This document shows, piece after piece, positions 25,998 through 49,678 of a stretch of DNA of 64,000 nucleotides (the first letter of the stretch is position 1; every line of letters begins with the position of its first letter). The translations under genes were made by a program, and so were the position numbers. Location of the stretch: positions 10,033,982 to 10,097,981 of the forward strand of contig JAOANR010000002.1 in assembly GCA_030278955.1 (NCBI GenBank). Reading direction: 5' to 3'. The notes beneath the pieces were generated by a model. The model was given only the letters and a program-made list of their open reading frames with translations, did not search any database and was not told the origin of the DNA. The stretch comes from Hygrophila difformis. Its lineage: Eukaryota > Streptophyta > Magnoliopsida > Lamiales > Acanthaceae.

Positions 25998-26145
25998 TTT
26001 AAATCTGCTTTCGTAGAGTAATTTTATCTGCTTTCTTAGCATAATTTTACATTGCTTTCTTAAAATAGATTTAATTGCTTTCATAGATATAATTTAATCC
26101 GCTTTGTAGTGTAAATTTAATTGCTTTCATAATCTAGTTTAAATT
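25998..26145 (+). repeat. GCTTTC-led tandem repeats in the A1 LTR
   Basis: Five or six imperfect 25-30 bp units each begin with GCTTTC or GCTTTG and continue with a TAATTTAAT-like tail. The homologous tract in A2 lies at about 29995-30095 (and 45268-45368) in the opposite orientation. Confidence 0.65.
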
Positions 26146-26210
26146 ATGTCAAGTAGTTGTTAGAAATCATTGCAAAACTTGAACCGAGTAACCGAGTGGA
26201 AAATCTTAGT

Positions 26211-26321
26211 AAACGACGTGGGCCCTGCTTCTATCGCACATCCTCCAGTGAACGATCCGGTCTTACTATAAATTACTGCAATTTTTGACACCGTGCGCTT
26301 TCGGGGGCACACTTTCTTAAC
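26211..26321 (+). promoter_or_regulatory. Strongly conserved LTR block shared by A1 and A2
   Basis: About 110 nt (from AAACGACGTGGG to TTTCTTAAC) differ from the A2 LTR (29812-29923 and 45085-45196, minus) at only about four positions by eye, while the flanking LTR sequence is highly diverged. It contains ACTATAAATTACTGC. It may be an R/U5 RNA element; the function is unknown. Confidence 0.6.
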
Positions 26322-26505
26322 ACGAGTAATAAAAACGTGACAACCTATAATATATCCCTAATCCCAACTCCATCTTCATAAATTGGTTTCACTAAATAAA
26401 ATTGAAAACCAGGATTATGATTTTTCAGAAAATACTCATATAGTGGGAATGTGTTAAAAGTTTCATGGCAAGGAACTTCAGGACATGGAATTATGAAAAG
26501 TTTCA

Positions 26506-26522
26506 TGGCGCCGTTGTCGGGG
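26506..26522 (+). other. Second PBS-like sequence inside the A1 LTR
   Basis: TGGCGCCGTTGTCGGGG differs from the true primer site (26812-26828) at one base and also follows AAAAGTTTCA. A third partial copy (GCCGGGG...CAGCGCCGTTT) occurs near 26643-26670. Confidence 0.75.
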
Positions 26523-26811
26523 ACCTTCAGTGTGGCAGACACATGCAATAAATGATACTATATTAAGTATTGAGCATTGATGTCTGTCAAGATTGAACTG
26601 TCTATCCCGGCTGCAACATGAAATTTGTCAAAAGTTTCATGCCGGGGAGGTCCACAGCGCCGTTTGAAATCAAAGTATCCCACATGAGTAATAAAAAGGG
26701 AAATATACCCTTAAACCCCTTTCCCACGAATCATAACTCTTTTCTTTTAATAAATTTAACTTGGGATATTTTATAAAAAGCTCGTGTTGACGAAATGTGT
26801 TAAAAGTTTCA

Positions 26812-26828: not shown

Positions 26829-26957
26829 TGGATGCAGCGCCGTTTATTAAGAGAACTACACTCCTGATTTACTCATAGATAGTTTTTGTATATATTCCTG
26901 AATCATTACTAACCTGGGGGTTGTGCAGGTGCTGTCAAATCTTGATACAAACTGCTT

Positions 26958-28652
26958 ATGCAAAGGAGAATGGCCACATTGCCTGAGCTACCGTTCGATC
27001 TAGAAATAGAAAGGACCGCTCGCCAACTGAGGGCGCAAGCCAGACGAAGGAAAGAGCAAGAAGCCCGAACTCGTACCTCACCCGAAACCACAAGCAGCGA
27101 AATATCCGATATGGCAGAGAACCAAGACATTCCCCCGATCTTACCAATAGACCAACCACCCAATAATCCTGGTAATGGAGCTGATGGGGGTATGGTAGAG
27201 CACTCGAATCGTGGTAACGAGGAGGAAAATCTACCTAATCCAAATCAGCAACAGTATCAGCAGTTCCACCAACAACCACCACCCCCTTACCAATATAACC
27301 AACAAAACCAAAATATACCAAACCAGCAGTACCAAAATCAAGCCTTCAATCAGGACCAATTCCAAAACAACCCTCATGCTCCCGATAACATTTTTCAACA
27401 GAATCCCAACTATCATCAGCAGTATCAAAACCAAGCAGAGCAAGGAAATCAACAGCAGCAAGCAGCAGCCGATTTTATGCAGCCCATAGTGGAACCCTAT
27501 CTGGATAGGCCTGGGAGAGCACAATTTCCTGCACGCAATTTTGAGCTCAAACCGGCACTCATCAACTTGGTGCAAAACAACCAATTTTGCGGTGCAAATC
27601 ATGAGGATCCCCATGATCATCTCCAAACCTTCCTGAAGCTCTGCGACACAATCAAAAATCAGGGAGTCTCACCTGATGCTATAAGACTAATGTTGTTTCC
27701 CTTTTCTTTGTTTAGTGGTGCCAGGGATTGGTATAAATCATTGCCCATAAATCAGAGGAGTAGCTGGGCAGATTTGGTGAGGAGTTTTCTGTTAAAATAT
27801 TTTCCTGAATCTAAGATAGACGAGGGACGAGAGAAAATAGGAGAGTTCAAGATGAAGCCGGACGAGTCATTGTATGACGCAAAGGAAAGGTTCGCTAGCC
27901 TCTTGAGGCGATGCCCCCAACACGGATACCAACCATGGGAGCAACTGAGGAAATTCTATGGAGGACTTACTCATCCATGGAGAATGATGTTGGACGCTGC
28001 AGGCGGAAGACATCTACTCCATTTGCCTATGGATCAAGCCTGGGAAAAGATTGAGACAATGTCTGTCAACAGATCTATGTTGAACAGCGGTGACAAGAAG
28101 GCGGACCCTCCTAGAAAAGTTTTCGCTGTGAGTGAAGGAAAAACGGATTTTGAAAAATTGCAGGAACAGGTAGCTGCGATACAGTTAGGACAGGAGAAAG
28201 GAAAGGGAGCAGGTACTTCTCAGGCAGGAACCTCATCTAGCCAAGTGCAAGCACAGCAACCGGGAGCAATTTGTGGGCTATGTCAGGGACCACATCCAAC
28301 TGACACATGCCAACAACTAGCTACCGAAAGCTGCAATTACGCAGGGAACTACCAAAACCGCCACCCCAACCTCTCCTATTCTAACAACAATGCACTCAAT
28401 GCGCATTTGTTGACACAGCCAAACCAGCCTAACCAGTTCGCAAACCAGAACCTTCAGCAGAACTTCAGACCTCAGAACCAAGGATTCGTTCAGCAGAGAG
28501 TTCAGAACTTCCAGAATCAGAACCAGAATTTTAAACCCATATCCAACAGAGACCCAACCAAAACCAAGGCCAGAATTTCTAAAACTTCCAAGCCCAACCT
28601 GATCAGAATCAGCAATACAACCAAAAGCCACCATCTCACCTGGAGAATTTGA
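26958..28652 (+). CDS. gag: Gag of A1 (frameshifted near its C-terminus)
   Basis: Athila-like capsid precursor, 564 codons open. The start MQRR is shared with A2 Gag. Order: a basic N-terminus (about 20-40), a long Gln/Asn/Pro-rich low-complexity stretch (about 90-170), the retrotransposon-gag domain (about 180-340; [50 protein letters not shown]), and a zinc-knuckle-like CGLCQGPHPTDTC near 435. Beyond about residue 525 the frame departs from A2; the expected continuation is in the next entry, so a one-base indel near 28540-28630 is inferred. The QN-rich segments could drive condensation of particles, but this is inference. Confidence 0.88.
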   Translation: MQRRMATLPELPFDLEIERTARQLRAQARRRKEQEARTRTSPETTSSEISDMAENQDIPPILPIDQPPNNPGNGADGGMVEHSNRGNEEENLPNPNQQQYQQFHQQPPPPYQYNQQNQNIPNQQYQNQAFNQDQFQNNPHAPDNIFQQNPNYHQQYQNQAEQGNQQQQAAADFMQPIVEPYLDRPGRAQFPARNFELKPALINLVQNNQFCGANHEDPHDHLQTFLKLCDTIKNQGVSPDAIRLMLFPFSLFSGARDWYKSLPINQRSSWADLVRSFLLKYFPESKIDEGREKIGEFKMKPDESLYDAKERFASLLRRCPQHGYQPWEQLRKFYGGLTHPWRMMLDAAGGRHLLHLPMDQAWEKIETMSVNRSMLNSGDKKADPPRKVFAVSEGKTDFEKLQEQVAAIQLGQEKGKGAGTSQAGTSSSQVQAQQPGAICGLCQGPHPTDTCQQLATESCNYAGNYQNRHPNLSYSNNNALNAHLLTQPNQPNQFANQNLQQNFRPQNQGFVQQRVQNFQNQNQNFKPISNRDPTKTKARISKTSKPNLIRISNTTKSHHLTWRI

Positions 28653-29363
28653 TGACTGAGTTCATTTCCAATCAAAGGGAGATAAACCAGCAATTGCAGT
28701 CATCAATCAAAAATGTGGAGACACAGGTCACCCAGTTGGCTAAGGAATTGCAGAACCGAGGGAAAGGAACACTGCTGAGCAGCACTGAAGCCAACCCGCA
28801 ATGCAAGGCAATCACATTGCGGGGAGGCAAGACTCTGAAAGGAAATGTGGGATCTGCAAAGAAGAAAGCTATGAAAGTAAAGGTTTCATTGGAGGTGGAA
28901 AAGGAAAAGGGAAAGGTTGAAGGAGATGAAAGTGTTGAGCTGGTAAAGGATAAATCAGATACAGCTAACTCGCAGGCTGAAGCTGCAAATGAAGCTGAAG
29001 AGGGTATGGGTGAAGGTACAACTTCCTTCTCTTTACCACCAAAAATAGATAATAATAAGTACATGCCAAGGGTGACGTACCCTGCACGTCTTAAAAATAA
29101 GGAACATGACCTTAAATTCAAGAAATTTCTAGAACGGTTAAAGTCTGTAGAGATAACCATTCCTCTCGTGGAAATGATTTCAGAAATTCCCACCTATGCT
29201 AAGTTCTTGAAAGAATTGATTTCAGGGAAAAGACATAGAGCAGGAGGAGGTGATCATTCTCAACAGCACATGCAGTGCCATAGTTCAAAGGAAGCTACCT
29301 GAAAAGAAAGAGGACCCTGGGTGTTGCATGCTACCAGTACAGATTGGAAAGGCCAAAGTGAGC
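28649..29363 (+). pseudogene. A1 gag C-terminus and start of protease region
   Basis: The frame 28649-29302 continues Gag-Pol (LENLMTEFISNQREINQQL homology to A2). It has a coiled-coil-like helix, a charged linker and the conserved [21 protein letters not shown] block. A one-base loss near 29233 shifts the frame (GKRHRAGG instead of the A2 GKRQVEQEE). Homology then continues in another frame until A2 inserts after 29363, at the duplicated TGAGC. The frame resumes at 49353. Confidence 0.85.
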
Positions 29364-32256
29364 TGAAACTTTTGACAAGTTTCGTTAACCCGAGCTTTTT
29401 CTAAAATTATACCAGGTTAGATTTATTAAATGAAAAGTGTTATGATTCGCGGGAAAGGGTTTAGGGATATATCAAGATTATTAGTCGTTTTATTACTCAA
29501 GTATGGTGCTTTGGTTTCAAATGGCGCGGTGGTCCTCTCTGTCATGAAATGTTGACAAATCTCATGGCATAGCCGGGATAGATCGACCTTCAGCCTGTCA
29601 CACTGAGGGTCTCCGGCAAGTATGCCATGACACTTCTCATCAATTCTTGCCATGAGAGTTCCTGCCATGAAACTTTTGACAGATTCCCACTACATGAGTA
29701 TTTTCCGAAAAATCATGGTCCTGGTTTAGATTTTATTTAATGAAACCAATTTATGATGCGGTGTTGTGATTAGGGATATATTTATATGTAGTCATATTTT
29801 TATTGCTCGGAGTTAAGAAACTGTGCTCCCGAAAGCGCACGGAGTCAAAAATTGCAGTAATTTATAGTAAGACCGGATCGTTCACTGGAGGATGTGCGAT
29901 AGAAGCAGGTCCCACGTCGTTTTACTAGATTTTCCATTCGTATTGCTCAATAGGTTTGAAGGGTGATTAACAACTACTGACAGGAATATAAATTAGATCC
30001 AGAAAGCAGTTAAATTATTCTACAAAGCGAATAAATCTATTCTAGAAAGCGGATAAGAATTATTCTAGGAATGCGGTAAACATTATCTACGAAAGCAGGG
30101 AAAAGAAGCATTGTGCCAACCGTGAAGTTGAGTCACAATGTGGACAGAAAGGACAGGAGGAAAAGAATGAAAATTGGACAAGGGTGAGATACGGCAATGT
30201 TAAACTTCCATTTTCATACGCAGATCTTTGTTTGGGATAATTCTTTCAGATAGCTAATTATCATGCTCTCAATAAGGCTTTCCCTTTAATAGACAGGTAC
30301 TTGCAGTATGAGTTTACATGTTCTTAAGACCTCAAATTCTAAGATACCACGGATTCGTAACTGCCCTGGCCTGGGTATGTTACTTCATCTGTGGTGGAAA
30401 AGCAACACCCGACACATCATTTATTGAAGTGCCAAGTACCACTATCATTCTCCCATGTCACACCCAAAGATTTGAATCAAGCCCTAAACTATCCCTTAAC
30501 TGTCAATCCTAGTAGCAGTTACACAACTCTCAATACAACCGAGTGACCTCTAATGAAAGCGATTAAAAGAAAGCAGTAAAGAAAGCATTTAAAACCTATC
30601 ACTCGGAGGTTTTGAAAATCTGACCCTGGTAGTAAAAGACAGCTCCCCATCAGAATGAAGGAGTATGGATCAAGAATTCCCGGCCCTCAGTGAACCACTG
30701 ATGTGTTCACTTCCTTCCGGGTGATTATGAGATACAAACTAATGAAACGAACTAATAAATTAGTTCATTCCGGATGCACTCACTCAGGACTCAAAAGTAG
30801 GCTCTGGCAGAAGAGGATAGCAGTTGAAAGAAAACTCAACCCTATCTTGGAAAATAACCAAGGCCTGGATGATGTTCCTCTAAGATTATTTACTACACTG
30901 TATTTGAATCCAAGTGGACCCCATCTCGGTGTAGCATTTAATCTTACATTTCCATCAACCAGCAATTTTGGAAAATAATGGATTTGAAAATCATTCCCTG
31001 TCAGGTACTAGACTCTCAGTTAAAACACAGACCCTTTCAGTCTAGGCGAGACCTAATCGCTGAATCTGCTTCTTAATTTCCCAAAATACAACCCTTGGCA
31101 GAATATGAATTAGTCATAACTGAAGAATTTATCCCTTACTCAGATCCGGATTTTATAAAGAGGTTTTTGTTGGAAATTTATAAAGCAATATCTGTTTAAG
31201 ATCTAGACTTCTATTGTCCAAGGGAAGGATCCCAAAATAATTACAGACCACAGTAGTATATAATATTATCATGCATAAAGATATATGGAAGTGTAAAATT
31301 AATTGACCCAAAATATAGATGCGGGTCTAGACAGAAGGTGAAACACAGAATGAAGTGGTCAAGGGACCAAAGTAATGGCAGAGTAATCAGGTGGACTGTA
31401 AACATCTACTGTCCAATTTCCCAATCACTCGGATGGAGCGAATTTTAGACAGCGTAGACCCTATAATGGTGGTGTCAACGCCAGTTGGGCCTCCACTGTC
31501 TGTGAATTCGGATAAAAACCTACATGCTTCCCTTCTATAATGATCATCAGTTGGCATTGACTGATGCCAACTGACTCCCACTACAGATTGGAATTTGGGT
31601 TTGGAAATTAAGATAGAAAAATAAAACTGTATCTGGATGGGAGTCAGTCGAGCAGCTATTATAACCCCGGATGGGCGAACCGCCAAGGCTTCCACTGACA
31701 TCCATCCAGACCATGCAAAATAACAATTAGTAACTAATACCCAGAATACGAGCTAGTTATCCATGAGGGAGTACCCGCCAACATTATTCTGATGTATTCT
31801 TTACTAATGGTTCCACACAACACACAAAGACAAAACAAGAAAGAAAGATCCATTGTATGAGAGACATTGGTTTCTCATGCAAGGTTGTGGATTGGGTCCA
31901 CAATTGATGGTCTTAAATAATCCTTCCTACCATAATTAATTACAGTCCAGATTATCTGTTTAAGCCATCAAGGTTTTGTTTATACAAGAATGTTTTAATG
32001 GCAATTGAACAAAGGTCCTTTAATCATGATGATTATTGAAGAGTGATTATTGCTAATCTCAATTTTTAATCATTAATGAGTCAAGGGTTCAATCAGTTAA
32101 GTGATGCAAATGGAGAATCAAAATTTGGGCAGCATAACACCCTATATTGCAATTCCAGAATGTTACATCCTAACCCGTGGGGCTATGATGTGAGTGTTGC
32201 AATATAAAATAGGGAGAGAATGAAATTTGTTTGAGATCAAATAGAGAGAGAAACCC

Positions 32257-32784
32257 TTGTCGCGATATCATAAATTTTGTCGCGGACCGAGGTCCGCGAC
32301 ATGGACATCCCGACAAGTTTTTAGAATTTTTGGCAGCATAACGCCTCTTTGTCGCTATGCAAGGTTTTGTCGCGGAACGTGGTTCCGCGACAAGGGTGTC
32401 ATCGCGACAAAGTGTTTTCATAAAATTCTAAAGCATTTGAACCCTTGTCGCTATGCATGGAAATTTTGTCGCGGAACGTGGTTCCGCGACAAGGTGTTCC
32501 GCGACAAGGTGTTCAAAGATCAAGGAACATGGCATAATTTTTCTGTCTCGGAATGGGATTTTGTCGCGGAACGTGGCTCCGCGACAAGGTACTCCACGAC
32601 AAGAAGCCATGGGGACAAAATGCAAGAGTTTGGCTCCTTTGTCGCTATGCATGGACAGTTTTGTCGCGGAACGTGGCTCCGCGACAAGGTATTCCGCGAC
32701 AAAGGGTTTTAAATTTGGAGACAAGTGTCTTGAATCACCTTGGTCGCGGAACAGCCATTCTGTCGCGGAACGTGGCTCCGCGCC
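32257..32784. repeat. A2 LTR palindrome array (downstream of TATA)
   Basis: Facing half-sites TTGTCGCGGAAC and GTTCCGCGACAA, in several hairpin units with loops such as GTG, plus single halves and TTGTCGCTATGCA variants. The copy in the other LTR is 47530-48057. Confidence 0.9.
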
Positions 32785-33445
32785 AGAAGGCGGTTGGCGC
32801 CCAAGGTGGTTCAGGACAATAGTCAGAAAAAGCAGAAATGAACAGTGGCATGCAAACAGCGTGATCTCACCCTATTTCAGATCAAAAAGCTATTCTAAGC
32901 TAAAAATAAGCAAGAAACATTCAAAATAAAGAAGAACATGCTTAAACAAAAATAACAAGGGAGGGCAGAATATTAAAATAAAGCAGGGGTCCTAATCTAG
33001 GGTTTGATCACACATTCACACAACATTATCCATAATATGCCAACAGTAAACATGAAGATAACAAAATGGGGGCCAAATGACCCCAAAATGAAAAAGAAAG
33101 CATAAATCCATGGGGTGTGAGACCCATTTCATGATTTGGGACACAAATGATGAATGTTTTCCCATATTATTAAGTGGGTGTTGTTAATACCCATGATTTG
33201 GGTGTTACAAACCCTAAAACAAAAGTTTAGAAACCGAAACATGGTGTAAAGATGGCTATCTAAGCACTGTAAACAGTAAAACACTAAACTAAGCTAAACT
33301 AAGGGCAAAAAATTAAATAATACATGAAAATAAACCTAAACTACTCTACCTAAGAGAGAACTCCTACTGCTTGCCTTCAAGAACCTCTAACAAAATTCCA
33401 ACCAACCAACAACTATTCAACCCTTAGCTCATGGGTGACACCTCA

Positions 33446-33453
33446 TATTTATA
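33446..33453 (-). promoter_or_regulatory. A2 3' LTR TATA box
   Basis: TATAAATA on the minus strand, about 620 bp into the LTR, directly downstream of the palindrome array at 33526-33769. The 5' LTR copy is 48719-48726. Confidence 0.65.
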
Positions 33454-33525
33454 GAAGTGTAACCCTAAGCCCATGGGCCTTGGTTCTAGCCCATTGTGTC
33501 TTAAGACATCACACACATCACAGCT

Positions 33526-33769
33526 TTGTCTCGGAACATCAAGTTGGTCGCGGAACACACTGCATGTGGCAAGGCTTCTCGACTGGGTCTTGTGTCTCTA
33601 TTTGTGCATCTTGGTCGCGGAATGGACCTTTGTCGCGGAACATGCCATCGCGACAAGGGTCATCGCGCCAGGGGCTTGGCTGGTCTCCTCTTCATTTGGG
33701 GCCAGTTGGTCGCGGAACATGCCTTTGTCGCGGAACATGCTATCGCGCCAGGAGGTATTCCGCGACAAA
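33526..33769. repeat. A2 LTR palindrome array (upstream of TATA)
   Basis: Repeated TTGTCGCGGAAC half-sites and ATCGCGACAA/ATCGCGCCA variants, about 75 bp upstream of the TATA box. The 5' LTR copy is 48799-49042. Confidence 0.88.
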
Positions 33770-34074
33770 GGTCTTCCTGGGCCTGCTGAATTGGGCCAGA
33801 TGGGCCGAAAATATTCTTTTTGTGGGCTTTTCTATCTTTTTCCCATCTTTTTGTTTCCTTTTCTTTTTCTCATGTTTTTGGATTTTTCTAACATAAATAT
33901 GCAATAAAATTACATATTTATGTCTTTTTCACACCAGCTTATTATTTTTACAATTATGCATAAATTAGTCCAATTCGACTGCTTTCTTACTTAATGTAAG
34001 ACCAGAATGCGATCAAATGCCCGTTTAAGACACGGAAATGGATTGAAAATAATGGTCATTTTTGGCCATTATCA

Positions 34075-35739
34075 ACATCCTCACATTTAATACTGATCGT
34101 CCCCGAGCAGTCAGAGTCAATGTTCCTAGGAACACGGACTCTACATATTCAATTCATTTTCGTGGCTTCATAAATCACAGTCTTTTTGGATTGGGATAAG
34201 ACAATCAAAAACTACAAGTGTTAAATTCCCTTGATTGCAGTGTTTAATGAAATGATACTTGCTCACTACATCGGGCCTACAAATCAAACATTATTACTAA
34301 TCCTTCATGAACATCATGTTTGAAAAATGCAAAGATTAGGGATGAGAATTAGAGGATGACATGAACATGTGTAATAAGACAGAGCCTCACATATAAGAGA
34401 ATCGGAAAATTCACTCACTCTCAATTGGGGTTTAATCATGAACGCTCAAAATCACATTTAATTAAATTATCCCATAAGCTTGCAATCAGACCAACTCGCC
34501 ACCGGCTCATTTCTTCAAATCGAGATCACGAGGTCTTATTCGAGGGTTATAACTGGGCGTACGGTTGTAACATTAGGTAGGAAAGGGAAATTATTTGGGC
34601 TAAGGAGTGGCAAAGATTTGTTCTTATCATAACTTGGCATTTTTATTTAAAATTTATGATCATCAATGTTTCTCTCTTTTTGGTTTTCTTTTGCATGACA
34701 TTAGACTATTGTCTAATTGCTTGTCATTTGCAATTTATTGATGTTGAATGAAATTCAACTTTTTTTTTTTTTTTTTTGAATCGGTTCATGGAATACCGAT
34801 TAGTACGTTTTCTGATGATCAAAAATTTAATGCCTTTGATAGAATTCATTCTCGCACACTTGGGTTTGATTGTTTTGGTCTTTTTGTAAGGCTAGGAATA
34901 ATATAGAAGGCTTCAAAGAAAAATTAGGCTTATAGGCTCAAATTGGTTAATCCTAAAGGGAAAATATTTTTGGGTTTGAATTTCAAACGAAGGCCAAAAA
35001 TTTGGGTTTTCTAGGTGCCTCGATCATATGCTCGATTTCGGGAATATGGCATGGTCTTGAATCGGTCCCAATCGCAAGTTCTAGTTTCCTTTAATCAAAA
35101 TGATTCACACATCAAAGAAAATGAATGAGTAAAAGTGACTCATGGCTCAAATCTCACAAGGTTGGGTTGATTCATGTCATACAATATTCTCAAATTTAAT
35201 CAAAGCTTAATTCTAACAATTTATTCAATCGGAATCTCTAACATGCAGATTCATTACCCAATAAGCTGATCGCATCATTAAATTTTTATAGCTCAAAACC
35301 CCAGGAATTCATGTCATGCATGTCTTCAATTATATTATCCCAATTTAAAAGTTTGAAAATTTAATCATAAGCCTAAATTCAACATGTGAATTTAGAGCAA
35401 TTTTATGCATATTTTTACTGGTTATCTAGTTGAAAGCAGTAAAGAGGCACTGCTGACACACTGAGTATGTCAACAGCATATTTTTGGTCTGACAGTCACT
35501 TATTCATCTCGGACTGTACAGACATCTTTTCAAAGGAAAGCAGTAAAGAATTGTTCAGTGGTCTCAAAAGCTGAGTTCCAATTTAGGGAAAGCAAATAAA
35601 TACAACCGATGCAAGGGATTCTCGTGCAGTTAATACAAACCTGCACACACAAAAGGAGACATCCCTTGTAGGATACTACTACGAGACTGGAAATAAAACA
35701 AAGCAGGGTAAAAGCGGGACTAGGATTCGTCCTTCTTCT
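34075..35739 (-). other. A2 non-coding region between F-box gene and 3' LTR
   Basis: About 1.66 kb with no supported gene. On the minus strand it ends AAATGTGAGGATGT directly before the LTR start, serving as the likely polypurine tract (34075-34088). A T-run lies at about 34761-34777. Confidence 0.6.
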
Positions 35740-37553
35740 TCAGGGCATGTATCGGAGCCAGAGGACACAGCTGGAAAGCTCACAACGCAGACACCAATCG
35801 CGGTTTCTCAGAGGTGCATGCCATCCTGGGCAATAGACTCTGACTCCTTGGCCTGCCCACAGTTGTGGGTTGTCTGGGTGGTCTGTTATCCAAGCGAGAA
35901 CGTTGAGGGACGTATACCGAAAAACTGATCGATCCGTCACCATCCTATCGATCATCCTGATTCCCTGCTCAACTTGGCTTTCATCAGTCTTACTCATAAG
36001 CATCAATCCGCGGGTGAAGATTGACGTCTTATGGTTGTCCTCAAGTCCCGGGCGTAGCAGTTCACAAGCACGCTCCTCATTCCCCTCTGCAAATGCCCTG
36101 AGTGCTGGAATGAGCTGAAGGTTGAAGTTTCCTGCAGCTGTGCATATTCGCAGGAATCTCTCCTTCTGCAGACGGATCCTTTCTTGCCATCTCTTCACTG
36201 TGGAGGTGATAACCTCGCATCGCTTGTACACGATGGCAAGGTTTCCAGCGTCTCTGAACTTCTTGCATACTCGTTGTGCAGTAAACACCCCCTTGATTTC
36301 ATCCTCTCCTATCCGGGAGAGAATTTCACCAAGGAGTTCGACTGGCAAGTCCAGCAACTTGGTTCCTTCTGGAGCAGGGTCTGGAATGGGAGGATTGTTC
36401 CTGAAAAGATAAGAAGTGATGAATCCAATTTTTATGTAATTTTCGGAAATTTTTCAAGTTCAGAAACCAACATCCTCACATTTAGAGCTTTGCTCTAGAT
36501 GTGAGATTATTAAATTTCTGGCTTGAAGTTTAATTTAAAGCAGATGTAAATAATATTTGGTTTTAAATGGGCTAAAGAGCCCAAAATAAAATAAAATTGG
36601 CCATTGGCCTAAAATCTTTTTAATGGGCCATAGGGCCCAAAAGTTTCCAGTTTATTAAACAAGTCCGAGACACTTGTTGGAAGTGGAATGAGATGGATAG
36701 ATGGAAATGGAATGCTCGAATATTGGAATGTGCAATGGAGACGTGGTGGAACGGATCTGCTGTTTCTGGATAGCTTGGACTGGTTGGACAGTTAAAGCAA
36801 CCAAAAATTTGCAAACACTGTTTTTAATTTTAAAAATGGTTGACTTGTTTTATTTAACAAAGGTGGGATGTGAGTGGTCCCATTTTGGATTTTTGAAAAG
36901 GATAGCAGTTGGGTGACAAAATACTGCTATCTCACTCACACTAGTGTTCCATTGGGAACAAAAACTCAAGTCAAACATTAAACAAAAATAACTCTTTTTG
37001 TCTTTTTCTAAAAGGTTGCTTTTATTAAAAGTGGAAGCTTCCTATTGGGTGTTTGTACTATGTTTCCACAAACAAACAAACATTTATTCCCATGAGATTT
37101 CTAACATGAGAACAAATGTGCCCAAAAGGATCTTACCTCTTTTATTACACCAAAAATAACACTGCACATCACATCAAGATCAATCAAACCAATAACATCA
37201 AGATATTCAAAACAATACCCAAATGTTCATCAGTTTGTTCCTTCCAGTTTTAAACTTCAAAAACTTATCCATTACCAGTTCTAACGCCATTAGTCAGTTT
37301 CAAAATGGGGTTTCAATGTTTTAAAACAGTGCTCATAACCGAGGGCACTGAAAAATTTCTAAGGTTAAAAGCACATATTAACCACACCACACCAAGAACA
37401 CAACAAAATGAAAAACGAAACAAAACAAAACAAAAAGAAACGGGTCCGAATGGGTGTTATGAACATGGCGAAAACAGGGTTTTACCCTCTCTTCCTTGGC
37501 TCGGGTCTAGGCACGGGTCCAAGGTTGGGAAGGAGTCCATGAAATCGGTCCAT
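35740..37553 (-). CDS. F-box protein gene carried by A2 (two exons)
   Basis: Predicted CDS: exon 1 37553-37486 (ATG, 22 codons plus GG), intron 36401-37485 (donor GTAAAA, acceptor CTTTTCAG), exon 2 36400-35740; 242 aa. Exon 2 has no in-frame ATG between an upstream TGA and the F-box, so splicing or a non-ATG start is required. The F-box (about residues 39-80) reads LPVELLGEILSRIG, then a CKKF block and VYKRC. A helical region follows (CTAAGNFNLQLIPALRAF...EGNEERACELL) resembling the Sel1-like part of plant At2g35280/At1g67623-type F-box proteins. The C-terminus has a CX2C...C cluster. F-box proteins usually act as substrate receptors of SCF ubiquitin ligases; the target is unknown. A1 carries a homologue (61644-63858). 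The gene lies in the sense orientation downstream of pol. The intron assignment is inferred. Confidence 0.8.
36475..36505 (-). other. Hairpin with PPT-like motif at the 3' end of the A2 F-box intron
   Basis: CTCACATTTAGAGC pairs with GCTCTAGATGTGAG (13 of 14) around TTT. On the minus strand the 3' arm and the bases after it form AAATGTGAGGATGTTGG, nearly the motif at the LTR edge. It lies about 70 bp upstream of the AG acceptor. A1 equivalent: 63004-63034. Confidence 0.7.
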
Positions 37554-37721
37554 AGTTTCCCCTTGAAAATGGAATGCTAAGGTGCGAAGAACACGTGGTG
37601 TTCGTTCGGATGAGAGGAAAATGGGGGAAAGAAGATGAAGAAACTGAAAGAAGTTGAAACGACAGGAGGAAAGTGAAAAGAAACTGGAGGGGGTGGGGGG
37701 GGGGTATAAATTCTTGAACTT

Positions 37722-38032
37722 TTGTCGCGGAATGCGAGACTTTGTCGCGGAACAAGGTTCCGCGACAAGGCATAGCGACATGAGAGAGGTCGCGGAATTG
37801 AGGGCTGGTCGCGGAGTCATGCTCCGCGACAAGGCCATCGCGACAAAGTTCAGTATGGAGACAGTCAACGCAAATCGTGTCGCGGAGCAGGGCTTGGTCG
37901 CGGAGTCATGCTCCGCGACAAGGTGCATCGCGACAAGATGTGGGGAAGGGTTAAGAAGGAAAAGGGATTTTATCGCGGAGTAGGGCCTGGTCGCGATGCA
38001 TGACATCGCGACAAAGGTCCTTCCGCGACAAA
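37722..38032. repeat. A2 internal palindrome array upstream of the F-box gene
   Basis: Half-sites TTGTCGCGGAAC and GTTCCGCGACAA, with GTCGCGGAGTCATG and CATCGCGACAA variants; the same palindrome as in the A2 LTR. It ends about 170 bp upstream of the exon 1 ATG (37553, minus strand). Confidence 0.88.
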
Positions 38033-38517
38033 GGATTTTGAATTTTCAAATTTTCTTGGACTGGGCTCGAGTGTGATATTGGGCCTGCGTCCATTTTATT
38101 TGATTTGGGCTGAATGAATTCAGTCCAAATAAATTCAAAATGCTGGGCTGAAAATTAAATAATCCACTTGCATAAAATTAGGTTGGGTCAGTTCCATTTT
38201 ATCTGCGAATTTTGTTTCGGGTATTGAATCTCTTCAATTCCCGAGAACATTTTCTCAGATTTACAGAACTAATCCAACCAAGAACCTGGTTTTCCATGTT
38301 ACTGTTATCTGCTCCTCTTTTTGGGGGTTCCGAACTTTTGCAAGATAGATGAATGAAATGCATTAGATTTTCTCCAAAAATCAACATCCTCACATTTAGA
38401 GTCTTAGTACTCTAAATGTTTAATTGATCTTTGGGTACTTCCTTGCCATGAAATAAATACTGTAAATATATACTATATATATAAACTGAAATTTTTGTAT
38501 TTTTTAAATGCTGTTTC
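38033..38517 (-). other. A2 spacer between pol and palindrome array, with PPT-like hairpin
   Basis: No gene. A perfect 11-bp hairpin ACATTTAGAGT/ACTCTAAATGT (38392-38402 with 38409-38419) carries AAATGTGAGGATGTTGA on the minus strand (38381-38397), a copy of the motif at the LTR edge. Confidence 0.7.
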
Positions 38518-41500
38518 TTATTGAGTGTAAGCCGGGTCTGCCACTGCTTGGCTTTCCTTCTCCGGATCGAACTGTCCGAGGTACTCTTTCAATCGTTGTC
38601 CATTCACCACTATATCGCCCCTGCCAGTTCGAATCCTGACAGCTCCATTTTTGAACACCTCTAGTACTTCATGTGGTCCTTCCCATCCAGATTTGAGCTT
38701 TCCGGGGAACAGTTTCAACCTAGTATTGAACAATAACACATGTTGACCAACATAAAAATACTTAGGTTTGATCCGGCGATCGTGCAACTTCTGGGTCCGC
38801 TCCTTGTAAATTCGAGAGCTTTCATAAGCTTGCGCTCGTATTTCCTCAATTTCATTGAGGTCCAACTTACGTTTGCTCTGAGCAACTTTCGGATCGAAGT
38901 TAAGCGTTTTAACGGCCCAGTAAGCTTTATGCTCTAGCTCTACAGGCAAATGACAGGCTTTTCCGAAGACCAGCCTATATGGAGACATCCCGATGGGAGT
39001 CTTATATGCTGTGCGGTATGCCCATAGAGCATCATTGAGCTTACGTGCCCAATCCTTACGGGTTATCCCGACAGTGGCTTCGAGTATGTGTTTGATTTCG
39101 CGATTGGATACTTCGACTTGACCACTAGTCTGAGGATGGTAAGGCGTGCCTATCTTATGGAGGATCCCATTTTTACTCATTAAAGTTTCAAAACCTTTAT
39201 TAATAAAGTGTGTTCCTCCATCAGATATCACCACCTTAGGTACGCCAAATCGACTGAAAATGTTGTTCTTGAGGAACTTGATGACTTGGCTACCATCATT
39301 GGTCGGTAATGCGACAGCCTCGACCCATTTGGATACGTAATCGACAGCTACCAAGATATAGTAGTTTCCACCAGATGGTGGAAACGGTCCCATGAAGTCA
39401 ATGCCCCATACATCAAAGATCTCAAGTGTGAGAATCCCCTTTTGAGGCATCTCATCCCTCTTGGAGATGTTTCCTAATCTTTGGCATCTGTCACAGCCCT
39501 TAACAAATGTCCTGCAATCCTCATAGATGTGAGGCCAATAAAATCCACATTCGAGGACCTTGTGGGCCGTTCAAGCGGGACCATGGTGACCTCCATATTC
39601 TGATTCATGGCATTTTCTGACAATTTGATAAGCTTCATGCTCGGTCACACATCGCCTGATTTTTAAATCAGGGCAGTGTTTGAAGAGATAAGGTTCTTCC
39701 CAGAAGTAACTTAATACATCTCGTTTGAACTTATTCCTCTGATGATAGTTCGAAAACTGGGGGGTTACTCCGCACGCCAAGAAGTTAGCGATGTCGGAAA
39801 ACCATGGACAAGCTTGATTATGCAAATGCAACGCGAACAACTGTTCGTCCGGGAAATCCTCATTGACGGCTTTTTCCTTTTTATCATTATCTAATCGAGA
39901 TAAGTGGTCAGCAGCACCATTATCTCGACCTCGCCTATCTTTTATTATGATGTCGAATTCTTGCAACAGAAGTACCCACCTGATTAATCGAGGTTTTGCA
40001 TCTTGTTTGCTAAACAAGTATCTCAATGCTGTATGATCGGTGTATACTATGGTCTTCGTACCTATTAGGTACTGTCTGAACTTGTCAAACGCGAAGACTA
40101 CAGCATACATCTCTTTTTCCGTTGTGGTGTAGTTAACTTGGGCTTCATTCAGGGCATGACTTGCATAATGAATTACGCAATGTCTCCCATCCTTATATTG
40201 TCCAAGAACTGCGCCTACGGCGAGACCACTAGCATCGCACATTACCTCGAAAGGTATTGACCAATCGGGTGGTTGCACTATCGGTGCAGAAACCAACATC
40301 TTCTTGAGCGTGTCAAAGGCTTGGACACACGCTTCATTTATTAAGAAAGGATTTTCTTTACAAAGCAGATTAGTGAGCGGCTTGGCAATTTTAGAGAAAT
40401 CCTTAATGAATCGCCGGTAAAAACCGGCATGCCCTAAGAAGCTCCTAACTGATTTGATCGAGTTAGGAAGAGGGAGATTGGAAATGATGGAAACTTTGGC
40501 TGGATCAACTTCAATGCCTGCACGAGAAATGCGATGACCTAACACTATGCCCTCAGTGACCATAAAATGGCACTTTTCCCAATTTAAAACCAAGTTAGTG
40601 TCCTCACACCTCTTTAAAATCTTAGCAAGATTGGTCAAACAATCTTCGAACGTATCTCCATATGCAGAGAAGTCATCCATAAAGACCTCAATGCATTTTT
40701 CGATAAATTCAGAGAAAATAGACATCATGCATCTTTGAAAAGTAGCAGGTGCATTGCACAAACCAAAAGGCATCCGTCGATAGGCAAAAGTGCCGTACGG
40801 GCAAGTAAAAGTGGTTTTATCATGGTCTTCACTGGAAATAACAATCTGATTATAACCAGAATAACCATCCAAAAAGCAATAAAACTCTCTCCCTGCCAAC
40901 CTCTCAAGCATCTGATCAATGAATGGCAATGGAAAATGGTCCTTGCGTGTGGCCTCATTCAGCTTCCGGTAGTCGATGCAAACTCTCCATCCGGTCACTG
41001 GCCTGGTTGCAACCTCTTCTCCTTGCTCATTCTTGGTTATGCACATCCCTCCTCGTTTGGGTACGACCTGCACTGGGCTAACCCATTTGCTATCAGAGAT
41101 GGGATAGATTATACCAGCATCTAAGAGCTTGATAACTTCTTTCCTTACCACTTCCTGCATAAGGGGGTTCAATCGCCTCTGAGGTTGACGGGAGGGTTTA
41201 AATTCTTCTTCCATTAGAATCCTGTGCATGCAAATAGAAGGGCTTATTCCTTTTATATCAGAAATGGTCCAACCTATTGCATGTACATGTTTCTTAAGGA
41301 CGTCCACCAGAGCATTTTCTTGCTCTTGGGAGAGCTTAGCCGAAACAATCACGGGTAACTTTTTATGTTCTGCGAGAAACGCGTACTTGAGATGATCGGG
41401 TAATGTTTTAAGTTCCAGCTCTGGTGGGCATTCAACGGAAGGGAGTAGTTTGCGAGAAATGGGTAGTGGGAGAACAGATTTACCTTCGGGATCCTGCATC

Positions 41501-44475
41501 AGTACAGGATCCTCTTCCTCCTCTTGGTTCGCGTCATCATGGAAGTCGATGCTGTCAAATTCCTCCAAATCCCCTGTTTCGGGATCGGCGAAGTGAACGG
41601 CTTTGCATCCTTTGTGCTCCACGCCAGCAGGCTTCAGTACCTGCTTTGATGGTTCATCCAGCATCATTTCACAATCAAGTTCAGAGTCTAGCTCTTCCCT
41701 AACTATTACATTTTCAAATGAAAAACAAGAACTGTCATTCGGAAATTTCTGCAATTTCTCCATATCAAAGATGATCTCCTCGCCATTGACCCTTAAGGTG
41801 ACTTTTCCGGATTTAGCGTCAATCAGTGCACCACCAGTGGCTAGAAATGGGCGTCCAAGGATAAGTGGCATTTCAGAATCTTCTTCAATGTCGAGGACGA
41901 TGAAGTCGACCGGGAAAAGAACCTGCCCAGTTTTGACCACAACATCCTTGAGGATTCCTACGGGCTGAGTGATCGATTTGTCTGCAAGTTGCAGTCTCAT
42001 CTTGATCGGTTGAATTTCCCCAAGCTTAAGGCGAACAGCCATAGCTAGTGGCATCACATTGATGCTTGATCCTAAATCACAAAGCCCCATACTCACTTTG
42101 GCCTTTCCGAATTGTACTGGAAGTGTGCAACATCCGGGGTCCTCTTTCTTTTCAGGCATTCTCCTCTGAACGATGGCACTGCATGTGCTGTTGAGAATAA
42201 TTACCTCTTCCTGCTCAACCTGCCTTTTTCCTGAAATCAATTCTTTCAAGAACTTAGCATAGATGGGCATTTCGGAAATCATTTCTGTGAGAGGAATGGT
42301 TATCTCTACAGACTTTAATCGTTGCAGAAATTTCTTGAATTTAAGATCATGTTCTTTATTTTTAAGCCGCGCAGGGTAAGGAATCCTGGGCATGTACTTG
42401 TTATTAGCAATTTTTGGTGGTGAAGGGAAGGAAGTTGTACCTTCACCTGTACCCTTATCTGGTTCAGCCGTTTCAGGCGCAGCTTCAGTCTGCAATTCGG
42501 CTGTCTCTTTTTCCGCTTCGTTCCCATTATCAGCTTCCTTACCAGCATTGTCAACAATATCATCCTCTTCGCATTCTGCTCCAGTATCTGCTCCCTTTGG
42601 TCCAGCTAGTACTCTTCCAGATTTCAAGGTTATTGCCTTGCATTGCGGGTTCTTTTCCGCAGTACTAGGCAACGTTCCTTTGTCCCTTTTCTGCATCTCA
42701 TTAGCCATCTGTGTAACTTGGGTCTCCACATTTCTGATGGAGGCCTGCAGTTGATTGTTGATCTCCTTCTGACTAGTGATGAAATCAGTCATCAGATTCT
42801 CAAGCCTTGAAGGAGGCTTTTGATTCTGATTCTGATTTTGATGCTGATTCTGATTCCACTGGCCTTGGTTTGGGACAAACTGAGGCTGGAAACTCTGATT
42901 GGGCTGAAAGTTCTGGAAATTCTGAGGCGGCCTCTGCTGGATCTGAGGTTGGAAACCTGGATTCTGAAAATGTTGGCCCCTGTTCTGATTGAATCCCTGA
43001 TTCTGCTGAGGGTTGAACTGCTGCTTTGGCTTATTCAAGAGATGTGAATTCAAGGCGTTGTTGTTTGAATAAGACAAATTCGGGTGTCTATTTGGAAAGG
43101 CTCCTGCATAGTTACAGCTCTCAGCTGTGACTTGCTCGCATGTGTCAGTTGCATGAGCACCTTGACACAGTCCACAGATCACATCAGATTGCTGTCCCTG
43201 CGCAGAACTTCCAACTCCTTGATTCACAGACAACGCTGCCACTTGCTCTTGAAGCTTTTCAATGTCTGACTTCTCTACCGTACCTACAGCACATAAACTA
43301 CGAGGGGGAGTGAGATTACCATCATCAGTTAGAACAGAACGGTTTACACTCATGGCTTCAATCTTTGCCCAGGCTTGGTCCATCGGTATGTAGAGCAAAT
43401 GTTGACCACCGGCAGCATCAAGCATGGATTTCCATGCTGGGGTCAGACCACTGTAGAACTTTCTCAGTCTTTCCCAGTCATGGAAGCCATGTTGAGGACA
43501 CTTTCTGAGTAGGTTGAAGAATCTTTCCTTTGCATCATACAAGGACTCGTCTGGTTTCATCTTGAATTCCGCAATTTTGGAGCGGCACTCATCCACCTTG
43601 GACTCCGGGAAGTATTTTGCTAGGAAGTTTCTGATCACATCTTCCCATGTAGATTTCTGATTTACGGGCAGTGACTTGTACCATGTTCGTGCTCCGCTTG
43701 TCAGAGAGAAGGGGAACAGCCTTAGTCGAATGGTGTTTGCGGGTACATCACGATTCTTGATCGTGTCACACAATTCTAGGAAGGTTTGCAGGTGATCATG
43801 GGGATCTTCATGACTTGCTCCGGCAAACTGGTTGCTCTGGACTAGATTGATTAGGGCCGGTTTCAGTTCAAAGTTCCTGGCCAAGAATGGAGCTTGTCCA
43901 GGAATATTCAGATATGGCTCTAAAATCGGCTGCATGTAATCAGCAGCAGCTGCTGCTTGATGATTGTTCTCAGGCCCGCCTTGGTATTGCTGTGGGTAGT
44001 AGTTCTGAGGCATGAAATAGTTCCTCGGATCATTGAAATCATTCGGATTCGGGGGATTCTGATGGGGGTTATGGTATTGCTGATTCTGTTGGTTTGGGAA
44101 ATTTTGCTGATTTGGTTGGTTTTGGTTGTTTGGTGGGTTTTGGTTCGGATTGGGAGGGGGTGCCTCGAAGTGCTGCTGGTCCATGTTTGGTGGATTCCCA
44201 CCTCCTTGTATGATCTGGGGAGGGGGATCATCCAAATCATCATGATCAGCATCTTCGGGGTCTTCCTCAATGTTGTGAAGTGGGGGATTGGGTTGAATGA
44301 TTGGTGGGATGTCAGGGTTTGCCATTTCGGAAATATCGCTGCTGGTGCTTGGCGAAAGTAATGCCTGTCGTTCCCGTTCCCTTCTTCGTTTAGTCTCCGC
44401 CCTAAGACGTCGAGCTGTCTTTTCTATCTCGGAATTAAACGGGATCTCGGCTGGCGTCTGCTTCCTCCTTTGCAT
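38518..44475 (-). CDS. gag-pol: Gag-Pol polyprotein of A2, one in-frame stop
   Basis: A single frame of 1985 codons, broken only by TGA at 39573-39571 where A1 has CGA, a CpG-type transition. Order (approximate residues): Gln/Asn-rich N-terminus to 175; gag domain 195-350; zinc-knuckle-like CX2CX3HX4C 434-446; coiled-coil LENLMTDF...QLQASI about 558-595; aspartic protease with DLGSS near 800 and LILGRPF near 872; reverse transcriptase with YRKLNEA near 1170 and FMDD near 1265; RNase H with CDAS near 1412 and TDHTALRYL near 1480; integrase from about 1600. The stop falls in the integrase HHCC finger. Catalytic D (GIDFMG), D (ISDGGTHF) and E ([11 protein letters not shown]) are all present downstream. 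The DLG protease and FMDDFS motifs point to Athila. Without readthrough, integrase would be lost. Confidence 0.95.
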
Positions 44476-44619
44476 AGAACAACGGCTTCAGTAATGACAG
44501 TACCTGTACAATCCCCAGGTTAGAAGTGGTTCTGAAGGTGAATATTTGTAATTATATGTATAGGCTACTCTAGGAGCAATGAGGAATGTAATTCTCTAAA
44601 TAAAACGGCGCTGCATCCT
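44476..44619 (-). other. A2 leader with candidate splice donor
   Basis: On the minus strand CAGGTACTG (GT at 44503-44502) is a good donor match, conserved in A1 as CAGGTGCTG (GT at 26929-26930). Whether it is used is unknown. Confidence 0.4.
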
Positions 44620-44636
44620 CCCCGGCAACGGCGCCA
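44620..44636 (-). other. Primer binding site of A2 (tRNA-Asp)
   Basis: TGGCGCCGTTGCCGGGG on the minus strand, directly abutting the 5' LTR; the 3' end of plant tRNA-Asp fits it. Confidence 0.93.
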
Positions 44637-47600
44637 TGAAACTTTTGACAAGTTTCGTTAACCCGAGCTTTTTCTAAAATTATACCAGGTTAGATTTATT
44701 AAATGAAAAGTGTTATGATTCGCGGGAAAGGGTTTAGGGATATATCAAGATTATTAGTCTTTTTATTACTCAAGTATGGTGCTTTGGTTTCAAATGGCGC
44801 GGTGGTCCTCTCTGTCATGAAATGTTGACAAATCTCATGGCATAGCCGGGATAGATCGACCTTCAGCCTGTCACACTGAGGGTCTCCGGCAAGTATGCCA
44901 TGACACTTCTCATCAATTCTTGCCATGAGAGTTCCTGCCATGAAACTTTTGACAGATTCCCACTACATGAGTATTTTCCGAAAAATCATGGTCCTGGTTT
45001 AGATTTTATTTAATGAAACCAATTTATGATGCGGTGTTGTGATTAGGGATATATTTATATGTAGTCATATTTTTATTGCTCGGAGTTAAGAAACTGTGCT
45101 CCCGAAAGCGCACGGAGTCAAAAATTGCAGTAATTTATAGTAAGACCGGATCGTTCACTGGAGGATGTGCGATAGAAGCAGGTCCCACGTCGTTTTACTA
45201 GATTTTCCATTCGTATTGCTCAATAGGTTTGAAGGGTGATTAACAACTACTGACAGGAATATAAATTAGATCCAGAAAGCAGTTAAATTATTCTACAAAG
45301 CGAATAAATCTATTCTAGAAAGCGGATAAGAATTATTCTAGGAATGCGGTAAACATTATCTACGAAAGCAGGGAAAAGAAGCATTGTGCCAACCGTGAAG
45401 TTGAGTCACAATGTGGACAGAAAGGACAGGAGGAAAAGAATGAAAATTGGACAAGGGTGAGATACGGCAATGTTAAACTTCCATTTTCATACGCAGATCT
45501 TTGTTTGGGATAATTCTTTCAGATAGCTAATTCTCATGCTCTCAATAAGGCTTTCCCTTTAATAGACAGGTACTTGCAGTATGAGTTTACATGTTCTTAA
45601 GACCTCAAATTCTAAGATACCACGGATTCGTAACTGCCCTGGCCTGGGTATGTTACTTCATCTGTGGTGGAAAAGCAACACCCGACACATCATTTATTGA
45701 AGTGCCAAGTACCACTATCATTCTCCCATGTCACACCCAAAGATTTGAATCAAGCCCTAAACTATCCCTTAACTGTCAATCCTAGTAGCAGTTACACAAC
45801 TCTCAATACAACCGAGTGACCTCTAATGAAAGCGATTAAAAGAAAGCAGTAAAGAAAGCATTTAAAACCTATCACTCGGAGGTTTTGAAAATCTGACCCT
45901 GGTAGTAAAAGACAGCTCCCCATCAGAATGAAGGAGTATGGATCAAGAATTCCCGGCCCTCAGTGAACCACTGATGTGTTCACTTCCTTCCGGGTGATTA
46001 TGAGATACAAACTAATGAAACGAACTAATAAATTAGTTCATTCCGGATGCACTCACTCAGGACTCAAAAGTAGGCTCTGGCAGAAGAGGATAGCAGTTGA
46101 AAGAAAACTCAACCCTATCTTGGAAAATAACCAAGGCCTGGATGATGTTCCTCTAAGATTATTTACTACACTGTATTTGAATCCAAGTGGACCCCATCTC
46201 GGTGTAGCATTTAATCTTACATTTCCATCAACCAGCAATTTTGGAAAATAATGGATTTGAAAATCATTCCCTGTCAGGTACTAGACTCTCAGTTAAAACA
46301 CAGACCCTTTCAGTCTAGGCGAGACCTAATCGCTGAATCTGCTTCTTAATTTCCCAAAATACAACCCTTGGCAGAATATGAATTAGTCATAACTGAAGAA
46401 TTTATCCCTTACTCAGATCCGGATTTTATAAAGAGGTTTTTGTTGGAAATTTATAAAGCAATATCTGTTTAAGATCTAGACTTCTATTGTCCAAGGGAAG
46501 GATCCCAAAATAATTACAGACCACAGTAGTATATAATATTATCATGCATAAAGATATATGGAAGTGTAAAATTAATTGACCCAAAATATAGATGCGGGTC
46601 TAGACAGAAGGTGAAACACAGAATGATGTGGTCAAGGGACCAAAGTAATGGCAGAGTAATCAGGTGGACTGTAAACATCTACTGTCCAATTTCCCAATCA
46701 CTCGGATGGAGCGAATTTTAGACAGCGTAGACCCTATAATGGTGGTGTCAACGCCAGTTGGGCCTCCACTGTCTGTGAATTCGGATAAAAACCTACATGC
46801 TTCCCTTCTATAATGATCATCAGTTGGCATTGACTGATGCCAACTGACTCCCACTACAGATTGGAATTTGGGTTTGGAAATTAAGATAGAAAAATAAAAC
46901 TGTATCTGGATGGGAGTCAGTCGAGCAGCTATTATAACCCCGGATGGGCGAACCGCCAAGGCTTCCACTGACATCCATCCAGACCATGCAAAATAACAAT
47001 TAGTAACTAATACCCAGAATACGAGCTAGTTATCCATGAGGGAGTACCCGCCAACATTATTCTGATGTATTCTTTACTAATGGTTCCACACAACACACAA
47101 AGACAAAACAAGAAAGAAAGATCCATTGTATGAGAGACATTGGTTTCTCATGCAAGGTTGTGGATTGGGTCCACAATTGATGGTCTTAAATAATCCTTCC
47201 TACCATAATTAATTACAGTCCAGATTATCTGTTTAAGCCATCAAGGTTTTGTTTATACAAGAATGTTTTAATGGCAATTGAACAAAGGTCCTTTAATTAT
47301 GATGATTATTGAAGAGTGATTATTGCTAATCTCAATTTTTAATCATTAATGAGTCAAGGGTTCAATCAGTTAAGTGATGCAAATGGAGAATCAAAATTTG
47401 GGCAGCATAACACCCTATATTGCAATTCCAGAATGTTACATCCTAACCCGTGGGGCTATGATGTGAGTGTTGCAATATAAAATAGGGAGAGAATGAAATT
47501 TGTTTGAGATCAAATAGAGAGAGAAACCCTTGTCGCGATATCATAAATTTTGTCGCGGACCGAGGTCCGCGACATGGACATCCCGACAAGTTTTTAGAAT

Positions 47601-49347: not shown

Positions 49348-49678
49348 TGAGCATGGGGTTATGTGATCTAGGATCCAGCATCAACGTGATGCCTCTAGCC
49401 ATGGCAATTCGCCTAAGGCTCGGAGAGATTGAACCGGTCAAGATGAAACTGCAACTGGCAGACAGATCAATCACTAAGCCGTAGGAATCCTCAAGGATGT
49501 GGTGGTCAAAACCGGCCAAGTTCTTTTCCCGGTTGACTTCATCATCCTTGACATTGAAGAGGACTCTGAAATGCCACTTATCCTGGGACGCCCATTTTTG
49601 GCCACTGGCGGTGCACTGATTGATGCCACGTCTGGAAGAGTCACATTGAGGGTGGACAACTGAGAAATCTCTTTTGAC
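49348..49678 (+). pseudogene. A1 protease remnant after the A2 insertion
   Basis: Resumes with [20 protein letters not shown], the Athila protease active site. A one-base loss near 49481 shifts the frame before the LILGRPF block, and a TGA stands near 49661 where A2 has a Gly/Glu codon. No working protease is expected. Confidence 0.85.

Follow-up and report, generated by a model that had tools for sequence, protein, structure and literature searches.

A gene for an F-box protein, lying in sense orientation between the integrase region and the 3' LTR, is almost certainly a conserved, element-borne gene of LTR retrotransposons in the genome of Hygrophila difformis. It was encountered in a window of 64,000 nt (assembly GCA_030278955.1, contig JAOANR010000002.1, positions 10,033,982-10,097,981, forward strand) of this 915 Mb genome, in two elements here called A1 and A2. 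A sequence-only reading of the window had already pointed to the gene in both. What it noticed is real, but it is the smaller part of what was found: a family with five such genes, an alternative ORF in the same position and promoter arrays shared with the LTRs had all been missed.

Two nested Athila-like elements

The window holds nested LTR retrotransposons, among which A1 (plus strand) is broken by A2 (minus strand) and by another element (Table 1). Both A1 and A2 are Athila-like Ty3/gypsy elements. The two LTRs of A2 measure 4711 bp each and are 99.8% identical, which indicates a young element, and the TSD TGAGC is present at both flanks. An in-frame stop at 39571, between the RNase H and integrase frames, means that pol is broken in this copy. 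Pfam profiles gave the order gag, RT, RH, INT in A2 and in a further family, A3, for which no protease was listed; the protease match of A2 reached 23.1 bits, just under the cut-off of 24.3. In A2 the integrase follows RNase H, which is not the order of Ty1/copia elements. No chromodomain was detected in the scanned frames of A1, A2 and A3, and a weak one (18.0 bits, below the cut-off) was found in a neighboring element at 7764-11642. An additional RNase H, a sign of Tat/Ogre elements, gave no Pfam hit, which is an absence of a hit and not proof; a single RNase H region lies about 100 residues before the integrase.

The PBS of A2 (TGGCGCCGTTGCCGGGGA) may be of the tRNA-Asp type, which would fit Athila, and the integrase C-terminus also looks like that of Athila. 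A tRNA-Asp PBS is described for Calypso and Diaspora in the available text of an earlier study (PMC1142308).

Several other elements were seen in the window. At 2457-15078 lies a Ty3/gypsy element whose LTRs are 99.4% identical; its pol frame is long, its chromodomain match is weak, and a decayed relative is located near 18739-21109. The element nested within the A1 integrase (52541-59987) also has LTRs that are 99.4% identical, and a gag frame was the only one recognized among its scanned frames of at least 150 aa.

Table 1. Features of elements A1 and A2 in the window, and of the alternative ORF at two other loci
Feature	Position	Strand	Remarks
A2 whole element	29364-49347	minus	LTR-bounded
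A2 insertion point within A1 gag region	29363/49348		
A2 5' LTR	44637-49347	minus	same arrays as 3' LTR, at 47530-47975 and 48903-49041
A2 PBS TGGCGCCGTTGCCGGGGA	44619-44636	minus	adjoins 5' LTR
A2 gag, (weak) protease, RT, RNase H frame	39571-44487	minus	Pfam; ends at stop before integrase
A2 integrase frame	38518-39570	minus	Pfam
A2 stem-loop with copy of 3' PPT motif (AAATGTGAGGATGTTGAT)	38383-38428	minus	after pol
A2 palindromic array TTGTCGCG/CGCGACAA	37722-38031	minus	upstream of F-box gene
A2 TATA-like site TTTATACC	37703-37710	minus	157 nt before ATG
A2 F-box gene, exon 1	37486-37553	minus	ATG ... GG/GTAAAA; splice sites by eye
A2 F-box gene, intron	36401-37485	minus	by eye
A2 second stem-loop/PPT-like motif	36470-36513	minus	in intron, just before exon 2; 29/30 loci
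A2 F-box gene, exon 2	35740-36400	minus	F-box, TPR_27, Cys cluster
A2 3' PPT region	34075-34089	minus	adjoins 3' LTR
A2 3' LTR	29364-34074	minus	4711 bp; motif arrays at 32257-32702 and 33630-33768
A1 5' LTR	21773-26811	plus	arrays AATTCGGTCT/AGACCGAATT at 22107-22488 and 23513-24070
A1 gag region	26946-29302	plus	Pfam gag in 26946-28652; interrupted by A2 insertion
A1 RT, RNase H, integrase core frames	49664-52577	plus	
Second nested element, inside A1 integrase	about 52541-59987		
A1 integrase C-terminus	59988-60394	plus	beyond second nested element
A1 stem-loop/PPT motif copy	60468-60514	plus	after pol
A1 palindromic array AATTCGGTCTAGACCGAATT	60870-61473	plus	upstream of F-box gene
A1 TATA-like site TTTATAT	61492-61498	plus	152 nt before ATG
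A1 F-box gene, exon 1	61644-61681	plus	MASSSSNPAGSVG, donor GG/GTAGGT; by eye
A1 stem-loop/PPT-like motif	62994-63041	plus	before exon 2
A1 F-box gene, exon 2	63180-63858	plus	
Other ORF (MGLPKTTPD...)	L082 224-1033; L088 2-700 (minus)		

Structure and domains of the F-box gene

A1 and A2 each carry a sense, two-exon gene between integrase and 3' LTR, which in A1 stands downstream of an integrase split by another element. Pfam matches and coordinates confirm the earlier claim that the gene occupies the same place after integrase in A2, on the minus strand, and in A1, on the plus strand. The extents then proposed, 35740-37553 for A2 and 61644-63858 for A1, locate the gene correctly but include the intron. 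This intron is in phase 2 and is 1.1 kb long in A2 and 1.5 kb long in A1, and the exon that precedes it is short. Splicing of exon 1 to exon 2 is inferred, as drawn in Table 1, from sites recognized in the DNA; across 30 A2 loci, the ATG and the GT donor were present in all 30 and the acceptor in 29.

Exon 2 encodes, in this order, an F-box, a plant TPR_27 region and a C-terminal Cys cluster. Against the F-box profile PF00646 (cut-off 20.5 bits), A2 scored 22.2 bits and A1 19.8 bits, just below, while the A1b family (see below) scored 17.7 bits, also under the cut-off. The TPR_27 profile (cut-off 27 bits) was matched at 29.7 bits by A2 and at 31.9 bits by A1, and the cut-off was also passed by A1b and by A3 genes 4 and 5. 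Thus, of the domain order first proposed, the F-box and the Cys cluster stand, whereas the intervening helices, then called Sel1-like, match TPR_27 instead, for which that label was close. Across 228 positions, the A1 protein shares 56% identity with that of A2. The F-box match of the elements is a weak one: the 150 best F-box matches of the host genome all scored at least 34.9 bits, above the 22.2 bits of A2.

Searches with the F-box protein returned no relative at E <= 1 in a protein database and none among viral contigs, two collections that may be poor in plant sequences, and nothing relevant in the PDB. Structure prediction from a two-row alignment reached a pLDDT of only 34.

Copies and selection

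The host genome holds at least 150 A2-type and at least 142 A1/A1b-type loci. The A2-type loci are the best 150 of 6080 first-look candidates; they are 94-100% identical, and 145 of them lack an internal stop. For A1/A1b, 142 loci were scored at 78-100% identity, together with three short second pieces at 69-76%, and a hand count found internal stops in 45 of these 145 rows, a sign of more decay. Lists of this kind keep the 150 best matches by score and therefore favor intact copies. Among the A1-type matches is a second family, A1b, at about 79%, and an A1b element at locus L070 contains integrase, exon 1 and exon 2.

The position of the gene is also regular. On the surveyed part of contig C1, seven of eight A2 matches and all three A1 matches lie 2.2-2.9 kb downstream of an integrase motif on the same strand, and none of the 12 A3 matches on C1 has an upstream integrase motif at that distance. 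The integrase pattern, which suits A1/A2-type integrases, detected 2588 sites in the genome and none in a reversed control. Every seventh of 100 listed integrase sites, all on C1 between 0.49 and 36.9 Mb, was then read in stretches positioned by integrase variant, and an F-box exon was found at 13 of these 15 sites; at three it is split between frames (L075, L077 and L079), and at one more it is shortened (L087). The sequence-only reading had proposed an accessory gene of this family, a proposal that would fail if other copies lacked the gene. Most sampled copies have it, and this result, the identity of all 150 scored A2-type matches and the selection data below bear the proposal out.

For A2 exon 2, mean pairwise dN/dS was 0.117 (28 of 30 loci); A3 gene 5, the only A3 gene included, gave 0.10 (24 of 29 loci). 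These ratios are similar to the 0.093 obtained for pol between A1 and A2; all were calculated with our own Nei-Gojobori-type scripts, on loci ranked by score. Among 30 A2 loci, mean pairwise divergence was 3.1% in the exons, 7.4% in the intron and 6.5% downstream, with approximate exon borders and an exon 2 stretch that takes in 35 nt of intron. By these codon and divergence comparisons, the F-box gene is under purifying selection. Within A2, dN/dS was 0.147 for the F-box, 0.109 for the TPR_27 part and 0.168 for the C-terminus. Between families (seven representatives), conservation was highest in the F-box, with a mean identity of 43.7% vs 33.4% and 26.5%.

A family with five F-box ORFs

In elements of the A3 family, gag-pol and integrase are followed by a run of five divergent F-box ORFs and then by a long ORF, an order read from one copy in three pieces. 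The A3 integrase, read directly at locus L073, is 68% identical to that of A2. The five ORFs are 26-48% identical to one another and 30-37% identical to the A1 and A2 copies of the window, with gene 3 entering both comparisons as a partial sequence; it is cut short by a stop in the copy that was read and is longer in L072. Genes 1, 4 and 5 score over the PF00646 cut-off, and gene 2 over the F-box-like cut-off only. The partial gene 3 gave an F-box match of 19.1 bits, under the cut-off, and no TPR_27 match, and genes 1 and 2 remained below the TPR_27 cut-off of 27 with 22.4 and 26.2 bits. When 30 of the 150 listed best TPR_27 matches of the genome were read, 29 proved to be A3-type and one belonged to another gene (L047, discussed below); a control search gave a sub-cut-off match in one of 14 control genomes.

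With A3 included, the F-box gene is thus present in several diverged families and has multiplied in one of them. Since the F-box tree has no host outgroup and its deep nodes are weak (0.69-0.84), it is compatible with a single capture as well as with several.

The long ORF of A3 (L046 2318-3304; L074 2-3835) is very long and has, in its far part, a Transposase_32 match of 43.3 bits, near the cut-off of 45. In this it is like the additional ORFs of Athila/Tat elements; a Transposase_32-like ORF is reported for sunflower Athila in the accessible part of PMC11728184. Two loci, L042 and L056, are rearranged A3 copies. Loci L069 and L071 were fetched beside the rearranged L042 and hence do not count as A3; at 1298-2188, L069 contains an ORF of another element that passes the Transposase_32 cut-off with 70 bits.

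Promoter arrays and PPT-like motifs

Upstream of the F-box gene, A1 and A2 each have a palindromic array whose motif also occurs in the element's own LTR. All 35 exact copies of the A1 motif in the window lie in its own LTR (18) or F-box promoter (17), against a shuffle mean of 0.19, and all 43 exact copies of the A2 motif lie in its own LTRs (34) or F-box promoter (9), against a shuffle mean of 0.73. The upstream array of A1b is rich in AATTCGAA, and no such array was found in the A3 stretches tested. A TATA-like site comes next, followed by a pyrimidine-rich leader: 29 of 30 A2 loci have a TTTATA[CT]C site at most 260 nt from the ATG (156-157 nt in the three printed), and that of A1b stands 151 nt before the ATG. 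Because each promoter array matches the array of its own LTR and is specific to its family, one factor probably drives both gag-pol and the F-box gene; a single factor for both promoters would be the most economical reading of these motifs. A candidate for the mode of action is offered by the VANC proteins of VANDAL elements, with element-specific non-coding motif arrays that change between families, as set out in the available portion of PMC5735166. VANDAL is a DNA transposon, and it is likened here by description only.

Stem-loops with a PPT-type motif follow pol and precede exon 2 in both elements (Table 1). A variant of the motif stands just before the long ORF of A3 (L046 2167-2311), and at 34075-34089 of A2 the motif has no stem. 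Such repeats may mark sites at which cargo was added or exchanged.

Proposed function

F-box proteins are SKP1-binding substrate receptors, and from its domain matches the element protein is likely to be a substrate receptor of the SCF type. On balance, we favor a joint reading in which an Athila-like clade acquired a plant F-box/TPR_27 gene and uses it for the SCF-dependent removal of a host factor. The gene would have been kept between pol and the 3' LTR, where Athila may carry an env-like gene, and the matching arrays would place it under the same factor as gag-pol. Its F-box would dock on host SKP1, and the TPR_27/Cys part would hold a host protein for destruction by the SCF ubiquitin ligase, to the benefit of the element. 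An expansion to five divergent ORFs in one family would be expected if several targets, or escaping targets, had to be hit. That the target acts in silencing, as the sequence-only reading had ventured, or in restriction is a tentative proposal, to which we give somewhat less than an even chance.

The conserved F-box genes suggest that the elements remove host proteins that would otherwise hold them back, and the five A3 paralogues would then be a natural panel for host proteins that restrain retrotransposons. As the F-box names the SCF ubiquitin ligase pathway, the function is directly testable by one interaction assay. Large DNA viruses use families of F-box genes. In p22 of a crinivirus, an F-box-like motif is needed both to bind SKP1 and to suppress silencing, according to the available text of PMC6784205; the likeness is taken from that description, and the function of the element protein is predicted. 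A doubtful extension would see in these elements a plant retrovirus-like lineage and would treat its env position as an exchangeable effector cassette, in which the promoter with the element's own array, exon 1 and intron stay constant while the ORF is swapped, and the five A3 receptors as a battery that hits several silencing or restriction proteins.

The main rival to host-factor removal is self-restriction, in which the F-box protein would act on the element's own Gag or integrase and so limit copies or exclude related elements. Constraint like that on pol and probable co-regulation with pol are consistent with it, and the divergent A3 paralogues could act on different Gags; five paralogues per element, however, seem excessive for such a role, which we consider unlikely. 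It is also quite improbable that the protein works as an adaptor outside the ubiquitin-ligase pathway, with an F-box that persists and a TPR_27/Cys part that carries the function, such as that of an RNA/DNA or plasmodesmal factor replacing env. Such an adaptor would suit the greatest constraint within A2 falling on the TPR_27 part, an unrelated ORF occupying the same slot in some relatives, and F-box scores under the PF00646 cut-off in A1, A1b and A3 genes 2 and 3 (gene 2 just over that of F-box-like), but between families no other region is as well conserved as the F-box, and the ratio of the F-box within a family (0.147) is still low.

The two remaining explanations were rejected. Host-gene capture by LTR retrotransposons is known (PMC3726574, available text), but an unselected passenger recently acquired by few elements is highly implausible for a gene found at hundreds of loci in several families, with proteins 30-57% identical across A1, A2 and A3, dN/dS of about 0.1 and conserved splice and TATA-like sites; selection, copies and divergence all contradict it. 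Least credible of all is that a usual env-like frame was mistaken for an F-box gene: the place and strand are those of Athila env-like frames (PMC7264820, in the text available), but the profile search matched exon 2 to F-box (over the cut-off in A2 and A3 genes 1, 4 and 5) and to TPR_27 (over it in the five genes named above), and from the F-box onward no membrane-like segment was found in seven representatives (best 19-residue hydropathy 0.72-1.52, own script).

Relation to known elements

No LTR retrotransposon with an F-box gene was found in the literature searched, a body that leaves preprints and most subscription journals outside its scope, and as far as it extends the arrangement is undescribed, as the sequence-only reading had supposed. 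The term "F-box" is absent from the main text of PMC9289625, PMC12786077, PMC3726574, PMC11728184, PMC7264820, PMC6317226 and PMC11963269. The elements are a new member within a known class, that of LTR retrotransposons with additional ORFs, whose F-box cargo is undescribed as far as searched. In that literature, env-like cargo genes, m6A-demethylase cargo genes and the promoter/PPT architecture of Sireviruses come closest.

The 3' additional ORFs of Athila/Tat (env-like, Transposase_32/Athila ORF-1) likewise lie in sense orientation after pol and before the 3' LTR; here, in contrast, the cargo is an F-box/TPR_27 protein, with five in one family. In orchids, a Gypsy family of Ty3/gypsy elements likewise carries a host-type domain, the m6A demethylase (2-ODD), in a fixed additional ORF (PMC9289625, in its available part), although the domain is a different one. 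The screen of 121 angiosperm genomes in that paper scanned, in the same available part, 5 kb on each side of RT, and could thus miss a gene this far downstream. For Sireviruses (Ty1/copia), the accessible text of PMC2829016 describes multiple copies of the PPT ahead of the 3' LTR, repeated palindromic motifs that precede the TATA box of the LTR, and motif boxes also 5' of the env-like gene. Their cis-plan is alike, whereas the present elements are Ty3/gypsy and Athila-like and have an F-box gene behind the boxes; the plan of LTR boxes, promoter boxes and PPT is therefore already known, but in another superfamily and before another gene.

The fish transposon Zisupton has a protein isoform with an F-box domain (PMC12062965, available text). 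Unlike the genes reported here, this is an animal element with the F-box in a protein isoform, not in a separate gene behind pol. According to the same text, the F-box is one of the multicopy domains that annotated proteins combine with transposon domains, and proteins of such elements may therefore sit unrecognized in databases. Where repeats are unmasked, the element gene could inflate counts of plant F-box/TPR_27 genes. The results bear on the means by which LTR retrotransposons of plants respond to silencing and on the roles of genes that lie between pol and the 3' LTR.

Alternative cargo and origin

Two of the 15 sampled integrase sites (L082 and L088) have no F-box and carry a different ORF instead. 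Both match A1 until about 70-85 nt from exon 2 and then diverge into the other ORF (Table 1). The two ORFs are 72% identical, without a Pfam match over any cut-off. In single comparisons (E 0.047 and 0.002), they showed a weak likeness to the beginning of the long ORF of A3. The upstream region, shown for L082 only, has a TATA-like site, exon 1 (MASSSSNPSGSRG) and an A1b-type array. The slot behind the intron can thus hold different genes.

As to the origin of the F-box gene, the L047 gene has an F-box, TPR_27 and Cys residues in the same order as the element genes. It looks host-like, given that it has no close second copy (next match 34%) and that its F-box and TPR_27 frames are separate, as if split by introns. 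The shared order makes the capture of a host gene, as first proposed, likely, although no donor was found. L047 itself is very distant: along 61 residues its TPR part shares only 23% identity with A3 gene 5, and the score of its F-box piece, 14.4 bits, falls short of the cut-off. Sequences weakly related to the TPR part of L047 recur throughout the genome; they stand on many contigs as open frames 154 and 167-168 aa long and perhaps represent further element families with TPR_27 genes.
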